A stretch of DNA of 64,000 bases from contig NZ_LMER01000016.1 of the NCBI RefSeq assembly GCF_001426435.1, positions 8,925-72,924 of the forward strand. The letters run 5' to 3'. Under the pieces are notes generated by a model. The model was not told the origin of the DNA. It saw only the letters and a program-made list of their open reading frames with translations, and made no database searches. Positions 4,407 through 7,908 of this stretch are shown here, in pieces. Source of the stretch: Angustibacter sp. Root456 (GTDB lineage: Bacteria; Actinomycetota; Actinomycetes; Actinomycetales; Angustibacteraceae). The first letter of the stretch is position 1. Each line of letters begins with the position of its first letter. The position numbers and the translations under genes were made by a program.

Positions 4407-5377
4407 GCTACGCGTTCGACGGCGAGCCGGCGCTCGGGCACCTGCCCGGACGCCGGCTCGTCCTCGTTCACGCTCATCCGGACGACGAGACGCTGACCAC
4501 CGGCATCACCATGGCCCAGGCTGTCGCCGAGGGCGTCGAGGTGACGCTGGTGACGTGCACGCTGGGCGAGCAGGGGGAGGTGATCCCTCGCGAGCTCAAG
4601 CACCTCGAGGGACGCGACGACGCCGCCCTGGCCCACCACCGGGCGGCGGAGCTCGCCGCCGCCATGCGGGCGATCGGCGTCCGTGATCACCGCGTGCTCG
4701 GCGGGGGTCGCTGGCGCGACTCGGGCATGGAGTGGCTCGAGCCCGGGATCGCTGGCGGCCTCGACGCCGCCCACGCCCAGGCCGCGCACCCCGCAGCCTT
4801 CGCGCGCGCCGACCTCGATGAGGCCGCCGGCTTGCTGGCCGACGTCCTGCGCGACGTGCGCCCGCAGGTGGTGGTGACGTACGACCCGCAGGGTGGGTAC
4901 GGCCATCCCGACCACGTCATGGCGCACCGGGTGACCATGCGGGCCGTCGAGCTGGCCGAGCGCGACGCCGCGCGGCCGGGGTGGATGGTGCCGGCGGTGC
5001 ACTGGGTGCAGGTGGCGCAGTCGTGGGCCGATGCCGAGCGCCGAGCGGTGCTCGCCGCCGCCGCGGACGGCCGGCTGCCTGAGGGCATGACGGCGTCGGG
5101 CGCCAGCGACCCGTTCCCGCCGGCCGTCGTCCCTGACGACCTGCTCGACGTCGTCGTCGAGGCGCCGCAGCACCTCGACGCCGTCGTGGCTGCGCTGCGC
5201 AGCCACGTCACGCAGGTGCGGGTGGAGCCGCCGTGGTTCGCGTTGTCGAACGACGTCGCCCGCCGGCTCACCGGCCGCGAGGGCTTCCGCCGGGTGCGTG
5301 GGCCGCGAGCCGCCACGCGCGGGCGGGTGGCCGATGACCTGTTCGCCGGCCTCGACATCGGCGCACCGCGCGACTGA
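4403..5377 (+). CDS. mshB: N-acetyl-GlcN-inositol deacetylase (mycothiol biosynthesis), PIG-L family
   Basis: Predicted 324-residue zinc hydrolase that removes the acetyl group from GlcNAc-inositol, a step of mycothiol synthesis. The AHPDDE motif gives H25 and D28, and GHPDHVMAH gives H171 as the third zinc ligand. The family blocks TLGEQGEVIP, GGRWRDSGM and YDPQGGYGHPDH match MshB better than the conjugate amidase Mca. GTG 4403 overlaps the stop of the ATPase gene; a clear Shine-Dalgarno is not seen, so coupling is likely. Being placed behind a peptide importer is probably incidental. A hairpin follows it directly. Confidence 0.88.
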   Translation: MSYAFDGEPALGHLPGRRLVLVHAHPDDETLTTGITMAQAVAEGVEVTLVTCTLGEQGEVIPRELKHLEGRDDAALAHHRAAELAAAMRAIGVRDHRVLGGGRWRDSGMEWLEPGIAGGLDAAHAQAAHPAAFARADLDEAAGLLADVLRDVRPQVVVTYDPQGGYGHPDHVMAHRVTMRAVELAERDAARPGWMVPAVHWVQVAQSWADAERRAVLAAAADGRLPEGMTASGASDPFPPAVVPDDLLDVVVEAPQHLDAVVAALRSHVTQVRVEPPWFALSNDVARRLTGREGFRRVRGPRAATRGRVADDLFAGLDIGAPRD

Positions 5378-5412
5378 GTCCGTGGTGCCCGGGCGGCCGC
5401 GTCACCACGGAC
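5378..5412 (+). terminator. Hairpin after mshB
   Basis: A 10-bp perfect stem (GTCCGTGGTG with its complement) around a 15-nt GC-rich loop begins at the mshB stop codon. A second 8-bp inverted repeat (CGCAGCGT, 5412-5419 with 5441-5448) follows. No T tract; termination is inferred from position. Confidence 0.5.
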
Positions 5413-5507
5413 GCAGCGTCACCGATCGCGCCACTCCGTCACGCTGCGTGCGTGTCGCAGCCCCGAGCGGGTGACCCGGCACGCGGCGAGGCCGCGGATG
5501 CGCGAAG

Positions 5508-7529
5508 GTGAGTACCCCGGTGGCGCAGCACGGTGCGCCCGCGATGAAGGGACTCGTCGTGGCTGACAGCTCGAACCTGCTCGCCCAGGTCGCAGGCAGC
5601 ACGCCGCTGCGCGGTGCCGACGTGTCCCGCACGCGCGAGCGCACCCGCCAAAAGCGCCTGCTGCGCGTTGCTGCGGTGCTCGGCGCTGTCGCGGTGTGGC
5701 TGTGGTGGCGGCTGCTCGCGGGCGACCCCGTGGGCTGGCCCCGGCTGCCGGCGGTCGACCCGCTGTACCTCATGAGCGGCGCGTTCTTCCTGGTGCTCAT
5801 CTTCGCCGTGCTGGCCTCGACCTTCGTCACCGGCCGCTCGCCCCACACGGTCATCCGCCCCGAGCAGCTCGACGTCGGGCTCGACGACGTCGTGGGTATC
5901 GACGTCGTCAAGGCCGAGGTGGTGCGCACGCTCAACCTGTTCCTCGCCCACCGCACCTTCGCCACGCAGATGGGCGGGCGCCCGCGCCGCGGGGTGCTGT
6001 TCGAAGGTGCCCCCGGCACGGGCAAGACGCACACGGCCAAGGCCCTGGCCAAGGAGGCAGGTGTCCCGTTCCTGATGGCGAGCGCGACGTCCTTCCAGTC
6101 GAGCCTGCAGGGCGCGTCGCAGCGACAGATCCGCAGCTTCTTCAAGGCGCTGCGCAAGGCCTCGCGTCAGTACGGCGGCGCCATCGGCTTCATCGACGAG
6201 TTCGACGCCATCGCGTTGCGCCGCCCGGGCACCAGCGGGGCCGCTATGACGACCGCGCCCTCGCTGCGTGGCGAGGTCGTGGGCTGCGGGGGACTCACCG
6301 GCCTGCCGTTCAGCGCTCCCACGGCCACACCAGCCGCGGTGACCCACGCGTTCCAGGGGCCGGGCGACAGCCAGATGACGGTGAACGAGCTGCTCGTGCA
6401 GATGCAGTCGTTCGACCAGCCCACTGCGGGGCAGAAGCTGCGTGGGCGGCTCACCGACCTGGCCAACCTCGCGCTGCCGAGCCACCGCCAGCTGAAGGGT
6501 CCGGGCCTGCCCTGGGCGAACATCCTCCTGCTGGCCTCGACCAACACCGCCGACCGGCTCGACCCGGCGCTGCTGCGCCCCGGCCGGTTCGACCAGCGCC
6601 TGAGCTTCGACCTGCCGGGCAAGTCCGGCCGGCGCCAGATCATCGACCACTACCTCGCGCGCAAGGCCCACGCCGGCGAGCTGGACGGCCAGGAGCGCCG
6701 CGACGCCCTGGCCGCGATCACCCAGGGGTACAGCCCGGCGATGCTCGAGGGTCTGCTCGACGAAGCCCTCGTGCGGGCGCTGGAGGCCGGCCGCACGGCG
6801 ATGACGTGGGCCGACCTCGAGCACGCTCGCATGATCACCGAGATCGGCCTGGCCCAGCCGGTGGGCTACACCGCGCACGAGGAGCGGCTCATCGCCACGC
6901 ACGAGGCGGGCCACGCCACCATCGCCTGGCTCGTCGCGCCGCAGCGACGCCTGGAGGTGCTCACCATCGTCAAGCGCCGCGACGCCCTCGGCCTGCTGGC
7001 GCACGGTGACACCGAGGACGTCTACACGCGCTCGCGCGCCGAGCTGCGCGCGCTGATCCAGGTGGCGATGGGCGGCCAGGTGGCCGAGGAGATCTTCTTC
7101 GGCGACGTCTCCACCGGCCCCGGAGGCGACCTGGTCTACGCCACCAACGTGGCGGCCCAGATGGTCGGTGCCGCCGGGATGGTCGACACGCTCGTCTCCT
7201 ACGCCGCCGTGCAGGGCTCTTCGCTCACCGACTCCGGTCTGGTGGGGCGCGTGCTCGGCGACTCCGAGGGACGCCGCATGGTCGAGGACCTGCTGCAGCA
7301 GCAGAAGCGCCTGGTGCGCGAGCTCATGAGCAGCAACCGCCACCTCGTCGAGGCGCTGCGCGACGCGCTGCTGGAGCGCCACGAGCTCATCGGGCCGCAG
7401 ATCACCGAGGTGCTCAGCACCGCGCAGGCTCGCCACGCCGCAGGCGGTGCCCCGGCGGTGTCGCTCGCGGACGCACCCGGCGACGGCGTCGTCATCGACC
7501 TCACCGGGCAGCAGCCGCGCGTACGCTGA
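5508..7529 (+). CDS. FtsH-like AAA+ membrane zinc protease, divergent
   Basis: A 673-residue protein with two membrane helices (about 51-70 and 85-108), an AAA+ domain and an M41 peptidase domain. Walker A GAPGTGKT is at 167-174, Walker B ends in FIDEFDA (about 228-234), and the second region of homology reads STNTADRLDPALLRPGRFDQ (about 344-363). The zinc site is HEAGH at 465-469, with D541 as likely third ligand. Compared with housekeeping FtsH it carries extra sequence between Walker B and the QMTVNELLVQM helix and again before ILLLASTN, and a very short loop between its two helices. It is therefore a paralogue rather than FtsH itself. Start is uncertain: GTG 5508 or ATG 5544, neither with a strong ribosome site. 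Confidence 0.85.
   Translation: MSTPVAQHGAPAMKGLVVADSSNLLAQVAGSTPLRGADVSRTRERTRQKRLLRVAAVLGAVAVWLWWRLLAGDPVGWPRLPAVDPLYLMSGAFFLVLIFAVLASTFVTGRSPHTVIRPEQLDVGLDDVVGIDVVKAEVVRTLNLFLAHRTFATQMGGRPRRGVLFEGAPGTGKTHTAKALAKEAGVPFLMASATSFQSSLQGASQRQIRSFFKALRKASRQYGGAIGFIDEFDAIALRRPGTSGAAMTTAPSLRGEVVGCGGLTGLPFSAPTATPAAVTHAFQGPGDSQMTVNELLVQMQSFDQPTAGQKLRGRLTDLANLALPSHRQLKGPGLPWANILLLASTNTADRLDPALLRPGRFDQRLSFDLPGKSGRRQIIDHYLARKAHAGELDGQERRDALAAITQGYSPAMLEGLLDEALVRALEAGRTAMTWADLEHARMITEIGLAQPVGYTAHEERLIATHEAGHATIAWLVAPQRRLEVLTIVKRRDALGLLAHGDTEDVYTRSRAELRALIQVAMGGQVAEEIFFGDVSTGPGGDLVYATNVAAQMVGAAGMVDTLVSYAAVQGSSLTDSGLVGRVLGDSEGRRMVEDLLQQQKRLVRELMSSNRHLVEALRDALLERHELIGPQITEVLSTAQARHAAGGAPAVSLADAPGDGVVIDLTGQQPRVR
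7522..7527 (+). promoter_or_regulatory. Putative -10 (TACGCT) of leaderless gene
   Basis: The hexamer ends six bases before GTG 7534, so transcription would start at or next to the start codon. Confidence 0.4.
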
Positions 7530-7533
7530 CCGC

Positions 7534-7908
7534 GTGGGTCAGCGCAGGCGGGCGGTCGGGCACGTCGCGACCACCGTGTTGACGCTCGCCGTCGCGGCGC
7601 TGCTGGCGGTGGTCGCGCACCAGGCGACGTGGACCGAGCGCCGCTGGCCGGTGGGCGTCGCCGTGGCGGTGGGACTCACCGCGGCCGTGGCCCTGCTGCT
7701 GCGGGCGTGGGGGGTCGGGCCCGTCGCCCGCGCTGCCGGGCTGCTGACCTGGCTGGTCGTCACCTTCGCCGCCGCCCTGCGACGGCCGGAGGGTGACGTG
7801 CTGGTGCCCGCCAACGCCCGCGGGTACGCGTTCCTGGTGGTCGGGTTCGCCGTCCTGGCTGCCGGGCTGACCGCGCCGGGTGGGCGCGGCCGGCGGGCGC
7901 GCGGTTAG
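7534..7908 (+). CDS. Small four-helix membrane protein, DUF6113-like
   Basis: Predicted 124-residue integral membrane protein with four hydrophobic segments and almost no soluble part. As I recall, small proteins annotated DUF6113 sit beside mshB in many actinobacteria, which fits here except that the FtsH-like gene lies between. GTG 7534 is chosen because a TACGCT hexamer lies six bases upstream and residues before it are a shadow of the protease gene. Function unknown. Confidence 0.7.
   Translation: MGQRRRAVGHVATTVLTLAVAALLAVVAHQATWTERRWPVGVAVAVGLTAAVALLLRAWGVGPVARAAGLLTWLVVTFAAALRRPEGDVLVPANARGYAFLVVGFAVLAAGLTAPGGRGRRARG

Follow-up and report, generated by a model that had tools for sequence, protein, structure and literature searches.

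In the 64,000-nucleotide stretch of contig NZ_LMER01000016.1 of Angustibacter sp. Root456 analyzed here (the window), the gene downstream of mshB encodes an FtsH-like protein which, judged by its sequence, is a member of a distinct, conserved and widespread actinobacterial subfamily of AAA+/M41 proteases. We think it reasonably probable that this protein is a catalytically competent FtsH-like protease in which signaling between subunits has been altered and a cysteine-bearing tentacle has been added to pore loop 2. The features that bear on this proposal are collected in Table 1.

Table 1. Positions in the window of the protease gene, its neighbors and the motifs discussed in the text.
Feature	Coordinates	Strand	Remarks
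FtsH-like AAA+/M41 gene	5508..7529	+	Open reading frame, 673 aa from the listed GTG
mshB, mycothiol biosynthesis deacetylase	4421..5377	+	NCBIfam TIGR03445, about 286 bits, cut-off 224
10-bp inverted repeat right behind the mshB stop	5378..5412	+	Terminator-like hairpin, no T run
Small predicted membrane protein, downstream neighbor	7534..7908	+	Open reading frame
First membrane helix, about residues 51-71, preceded by a basic segment	5658..5720	+	Modeled helix 38-71; membrane extent inferred
Second membrane helix, residues 85-108	5760..5831	+	Model
Walker A EGAPGTGKT	6003..6029	+	Residues 166-174
Pore loop 1 region SFQSSLQGA	6090..6116	+	Leu in place of aromatic residue
Walker B region AIGFIDEFDAIA	6180..6215	+	Asp-Glu; Walker B residues 225-231
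Insert 1, residues 240-288, pore-loop-2 segment	6225..6371	+	Predicted disordered; pLDDT <50 at 242-280
Cysteine motif CGGLTGLP, residues 260-267	6285..6308	+	Contains the only cysteine of the protein
QSF at the place of the FtsH signaling motif DGF	6405..6413	+	Alignment
Insert 2, residues 306-336, ordered helix directly after QSF	6423..6515	+	Alignment and model
Zinc motif HEAGH	6900..6914	+	Residues 465-469; H465/E466/H469 in 89/89 rows
Third zinc ligand D541	7128..7130	+	Asp in 88/89 rows, Ala in L049

Results and discussion

A divergent AAA+/M41 protein in a genome with a housekeeping FtsH

The models for AAA (91.5 bits), AAA_lid_3 and Peptidase_M41 (103.6 bits) all matched the window protein above their Pfam cut-offs. 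The joining of AAA to Peptidase_M41 places it in the AAA+/M41 protease superfamily, as does the presence of the HExxH and distal Asp zinc ligands, Walker A, the catalytic Glu, the sensor Asn and the SRH arginines, and both domain models also matched all of the 64 family members scanned. Against the FtsH equivalog TIGR01241, however, the protein reached only 252.9 bits (cut-off 600), well short of FtsH proper and in keeping with the original prediction, made from the DNA letters and open reading frames, of a divergent FtsH-like protease. The separate housekeeping ftsH that this prediction presupposed was found on contig 15 of the same genome (G000; L001), where it scores 870.9 bits with TIGR01241, and contig 17 carries one more M41 paralogue (L002 142-2094), which at 571.5 bits stays slightly below the FtsH cut-off. 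With three M41 genes in the genome, the possibility that the window gene is its sole FtsH was ruled out. The true start of the gene is probably the GTG at 5559 and not the listed GTG at 5508, since AAGGGA lies upstream of the former and a homologue from the same genus begins at about this point.

Retained catalytic residues and a reduced membrane part

The alignment shows that every residue expected to serve nucleotide binding, hydrolysis and zinc catalysis has been retained, and the earlier description of the zinc site and Walker motifs as intact holds for HEAGH, D541, Walker A and Walker B alike. The sensor N346 and the arginines R357 and R360 are also present. Throughout the family alignment of 89 rows (the window protein plus 88 non-duplicate loci, with six duplicates and the distant L048 omitted), the arginine-finger and zinc residues were invariant with the sole exception of D541A. 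This Asp to Ala replacement of the third zinc ligand occurs in the MAG homologue L049 (3588-5558), the protein of which is identical to that of L035.

Two positions of the ATPase vary. Pore loop 1 of FtsH proper has an aromatic-hydrophobic-Gly sequence, which the window protein lacks, having LQG. Most of the family keeps the aromatic residue (YYG, WYG or FYG), and it is within a clade of nine rows including the window protein (support 97/79) that the loop drifts away from these forms, its members having FYG, FQG, MQG and, in the window protein, LQG. The Asp-Glu form of Walker B defines this same clade; the other form, Glu-Glu (FIEEID), is found in 80 of the 89 rows. Most simply, Glu-Glu would be ancestral to subfamily 1, the family of the window protein, with one reversion to Asp in the clade of nine, a polarity that is unsure because long outgroup branches meet in the tree. 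The LQG of the window protein could lower the rate of threading or ATP hydrolysis, and so could the Glu-Glu of the family.

An AlphaFold2 model of the window protein (64-row alignment, mean pLDDT 81.4) has only about 13 residues joining the two N-terminal helices (38-71 and 85-108), as expected from the tiny periplasmic loop first noticed in the sequence. FtsH proper is marked by a folded extracytoplasmic domain between its membrane helices, and the predicted topology shows this domain to have been lost in the window protein. The best fold matches of the model were FtsH, AFG3L2, YME1 and Ycf2-FtsHi (Foldseek E from 8e-32 to about 1e-24; VIA-align Z about 24-26).

Two family-wide inserts at control sites of the ATPase

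Alignment against the canonical FtsH copies of the genome, with L001 as the reference, delimited two inserts whose boundaries lie close to those first proposed (about residues 236-288 and 304-337). The inserts do interrupt the control region of the ATPase, as had been claimed, but pore loop 1 is not hit; they fall instead in pore loop 2 and behind the signaling motif, sites that in relatives control substrate engagement and communication between subunits, and to that extent the original prediction is supported. Walker B and the helix preceding the signaling motif flank insert 1, whose location we take, from FtsH anatomy, to be the site of pore loop 2. Insert 2 follows QSF, a sequence found in 89/89 rows at the place where L001 and L002, like FtsH proper, have DGF. 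A 2026 review (PMC12994072) describes DGF as the inter-subunit signaling motif of YME1L. A search for the same insertions elsewhere found both in the homologues and neither in L001 and L002, and as they are family-wide, a chance or local insertion was rejected.

Insert 2 measures 31 residues in 88 rows and 29 in the remaining one, with N320 invariant and L323, P324, R327, Q328 and P332 almost invariant, and its residues 307-322 form a confident helix of high pLDDT in the window model. Insert 1, in turn, ranges from 24 to 67 residues and contains a cysteine in 80/89 rows. When the rows are anchored on this cysteine, information peaks at C, G (+2), L (+6) and P (+7), the flank on the N-side being weak, and the resulting motif, C-x-G-x3-L-[P/S], is conserved in two subfamilies against a variable background. 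A second model, that of the Kineococcus xinjiangensis homologue L069 (53-row alignment), agrees with the first, with disorder at 239-284 and a helix at 307-320, and neither model gives the cysteine motif a confident position or docking (pLDDT about 31-42). The notion that the segments might be both disordered and unconserved thus applies to the disorder of insert 1 only, as this insert nevertheless carries a conserved motif, and insert 2 has both an ordered structure and an unvarying length.

Distribution of the family and a second subfamily with the same inserts

Near full-length homologues with 59-82% identity were present in 15 of the 59 genomes searched, Angustibacter itself being counted. 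At the class level, 84 of 394 genomes passed a threshold of 1e-60, which leaves 69/394 by score after subtraction of 15 with distant-group proteins. Carriers include Kineococcus, Quadrisphaera, Kineosporia, Nocardioides and Cellulomonas as well as many MAGs. The named loci comprise the best 80 of 414 candidates, and the conservation figures therefore lean towards closer relatives. The titles of two records look wrong, as L103 ('Bifidobacterium breve' MAG) groups with the actinobacterial MAGs L106, L117 and L128, and L111 ('Streptomyces sp. NP160') groups with Quadrisphaera. A sub-clade, L122-L126, has a short, cysteine-free insert 1, with mshB absent from the available sequence; in three of its members (L124, L125 and L126) the gene is divergently oriented next to hrcA-dnaJ-like heat-shock genes, as judged by eye.

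A second actinobacterial subfamily (L165-L181) shares with that of the window protein the AAA and M41-type protease domains (here with HEACH) and both inserts at the same places, but differs in sequence (about 33% identity), in having Asp-Glu at Walker B and in an insert 2 of 21 residues. Sixteen of its 17 loci were aligned, all but L177, which has an in-frame stop, and all 16 aligned rows carry the insert cysteine in the pattern C-[H/N/R]-G-x-x-[Y/F/H]-L-[S/A/D]. Most of these proteins have two or three cysteines in total, one of them within HEACH. A gene for a predicted lipoprotein (about 215-233 aa) adjoins the subfamily-2 genes L183, L184, L186 and L187, and of five loci read, four have such a gene upstream of the FtsH-like gene. 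For L184 and L187, the lipoprotein/FtsH-like pair is flanked by hisS/aspS-like genes on one side and rarA/alaS-like genes on the other, as identified by eye.

A more distant relative, the 'AAA family ATPase' WP_012643090.1 from plasmid NC_011961 of Thermomicrobium roseum (35% identity), resembles the window protein in its tiny extracytoplasmic loop and, by eye, in a comparable segment following the signaling motif. Its pore-loop-2 segment, unlike that of the window protein, is short and has no cysteine motif. As it has the one and not the other, the post-signaling segment appears to predate the cysteine-bearing loop.

The mshB neighborhood

After exclusion of four loci whose upstream sequence was too short, 84 family loci were decidable; in 69 of them mshB immediately precedes the protease gene in the same orientation, and five of the 15 non-adjacent loci have it 2-5 kb upstream. 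This makes mshB followed by the protease the normal order, and the original proposal that the window gene splits a usual pair of mshB and a small membrane protein was not supported. A homologue of the small membrane protein is detectable at only 6 distinct related loci, and in those relatives without the FtsH-like gene that were read (by eye), the gene after mshB is flavin-reductase-like or VanW-like. Because of the inverted repeat in the gap, co-transcription with mshB is not assured. The fold of 5370-5430 (-32.5 kcal/mol, z -1.91) was equaled by 7 of 200 shuffles, and no U-tailed terminator was found at the gap between mshB and the protease gene. The same genome has a second mshB-like gene on contig 1 (519495-520376; L136), scoring 322 bits, above the family cut-off, versus 285.5 for the mshB of the window.

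Loci with the insert cysteine are linked to mshB in 66/75 cases and those without it in 3/9. On the tree, loss of the cysteine and loss of the mshB link showed no association (median p 1), and as this comparison comprises only two supported independent pairs, no such association is claimed. Co-occurrence with mycothiol was likewise set aside as uninformative, since MshC scores above its cut-off in 351 of the 394 class genomes. The co-location with mshB hints at a possible involvement in thiol or envelope stress.

Comparison with known systems

FtsH, as represented by TIGR01241 and L001, has in common with the window protein the AAA and M41 domains, the Walker motifs, the arginine fingers, the HExxH...D ligands and two N-terminal helices. 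The window protein differs from L001 in that it has no extracytoplasmic domain, has QSF for DGF and LQG versus FVG, and carries the two inserts. The Ycf2-FtsHi plastid motor is among its best structural matches; the zinc motif, which is degenerate in FtsHi proteins, is intact in the window protein, and HEH is kept in 89/89 rows of its family. AFG3L2, the mitochondrial m-AAA protease, is similar in fold and, according to PMC12994072, engages substrate through a 4-residue insertion in its pore loop 2. The window family differs from it in the size of insert 1, in its disorder and cysteine motif, and in the extra insert after the signaling motif.

A phage origin was rejected, as only 34 of 50,697 phage records matched, none above 60% identity and none covering 80% of the query in one place, and so was a plasmid origin, the matches among plasmids (690 of 72,556 records) all being below 60% identity. 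In the anti-phage system IetAS, the IetA ATPase adjoins the IetS protease. The PADLOC models for IetA matched the AAA part of the window protein only, and both its M41 domain and its location beside mshB argue against IetAS, so a defense gene was also discarded. Among the titles and abstract openings returned by searches of the PMC library, no description of such an FtsH-like family, of an mshB-FtsH gene pair or of inserts of this kind was found.

Proposed function and alternative explanations

We propose that the gene product would be a membrane-anchored, ATP-driven zinc metalloprotease, a paralogue of the housekeeping FtsH, whose hexamer would draw specific substrates into the M41 chamber, probably proteins in or close to the membrane. 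From its position alone, the helix of insert 2 after QSF may replace or reshape the DGF-based signaling between neighboring ATPase subunits. Insert 1 would give pore loop 2 a flexible tentacle where the ATPase pore ends, from which C-x-G-x3-L-[P/S] could face the substrate path or the protease chamber. The cysteine of this motif might serve as a thiol gate, as a zinc 'cysteine switch' or as a hook for substrates.

The Glu-Glu Walker B of most rows, the loss of the pore loop 1 aromatic residue in the window protein and its nearest relatives, the D541A of L049 and the presence of Ycf2-FtsHi motor complexes among the structural matches would all fit a different protein, one that is mainly an ATPase or chaperone and remodels membrane proteins but does not degrade them processively, in the manner of an incipient pseudo-protease. 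This is unlikely in our view, because the conservation of HExxH in every row and of the third ligand in all rows but one would be unexpected were proteolysis dispensable. It seems less probable still that the gene is a second general-purpose FtsH decorated neutrally by its inserts: the low complexity and variable length of insert 1 are what such decoration would produce, but the constancy and conservation of insert 2, the short cysteine motif kept across two subfamilies and the large gap in TIGR01241 score from the ftsH of the genome all argue for something more specialized than that.

The meaning of the neighborhood is more evenly balanced. That it represents inherited synteny, with mycothiol and the protease functionally unconnected, has a little less than an even chance of being correct; mshB and the protease gene are about 130-180 bp apart and have a terminator-like hairpin between them, 15 of the 84 decidable loci are non-adjacent, the subfamily-2 genes that were read occupy other contexts, and the losses of cysteine and mshB link are unassociated on the tree, yet adjacency and orientation have been kept in 69 loci from many different genomes. 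In another reading, the cysteine of insert 1 would keep the protease or the pore closed until oxidized or mycothiolated, either as a ligand of the M41 zinc or as one of six ring thiols gating the pore. There is precedent in the zinc protease Wss1, for which PMC4559962 describes a cysteine switch activated by chemical stress, and besides the mshB next door, the flexible arms around the cysteine (16-36 residues on the N-side and 27-47 on the C-side, with residues 236 and 292 as the limits) may have the length needed to extend into the chamber. Such a gate is nevertheless quite improbable, given that the motif is undocked in the models, that 9/89 rows have no cysteine and that subfamily 2 keeps the motif although no mshB was recognized by eye in five of its neighborhoods. 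If it were true, the family would be one of redox-switched AAA+ proteases encoded beside a mycothiol gene and released under oxidative or mycothiol stress.

FtsH-type proteases have mostly been treated as one housekeeping family, with their control sites worked out in few models. A natural family in which both control sites, pore loop 2 and the signaling motif, have been rebuilt would offer a direct test of the roles of those sites. Moreover, the cysteine motif common to subfamilies that are only about one-third identical points to a possible route from thiol state to membrane protein turnover in actinobacteria.
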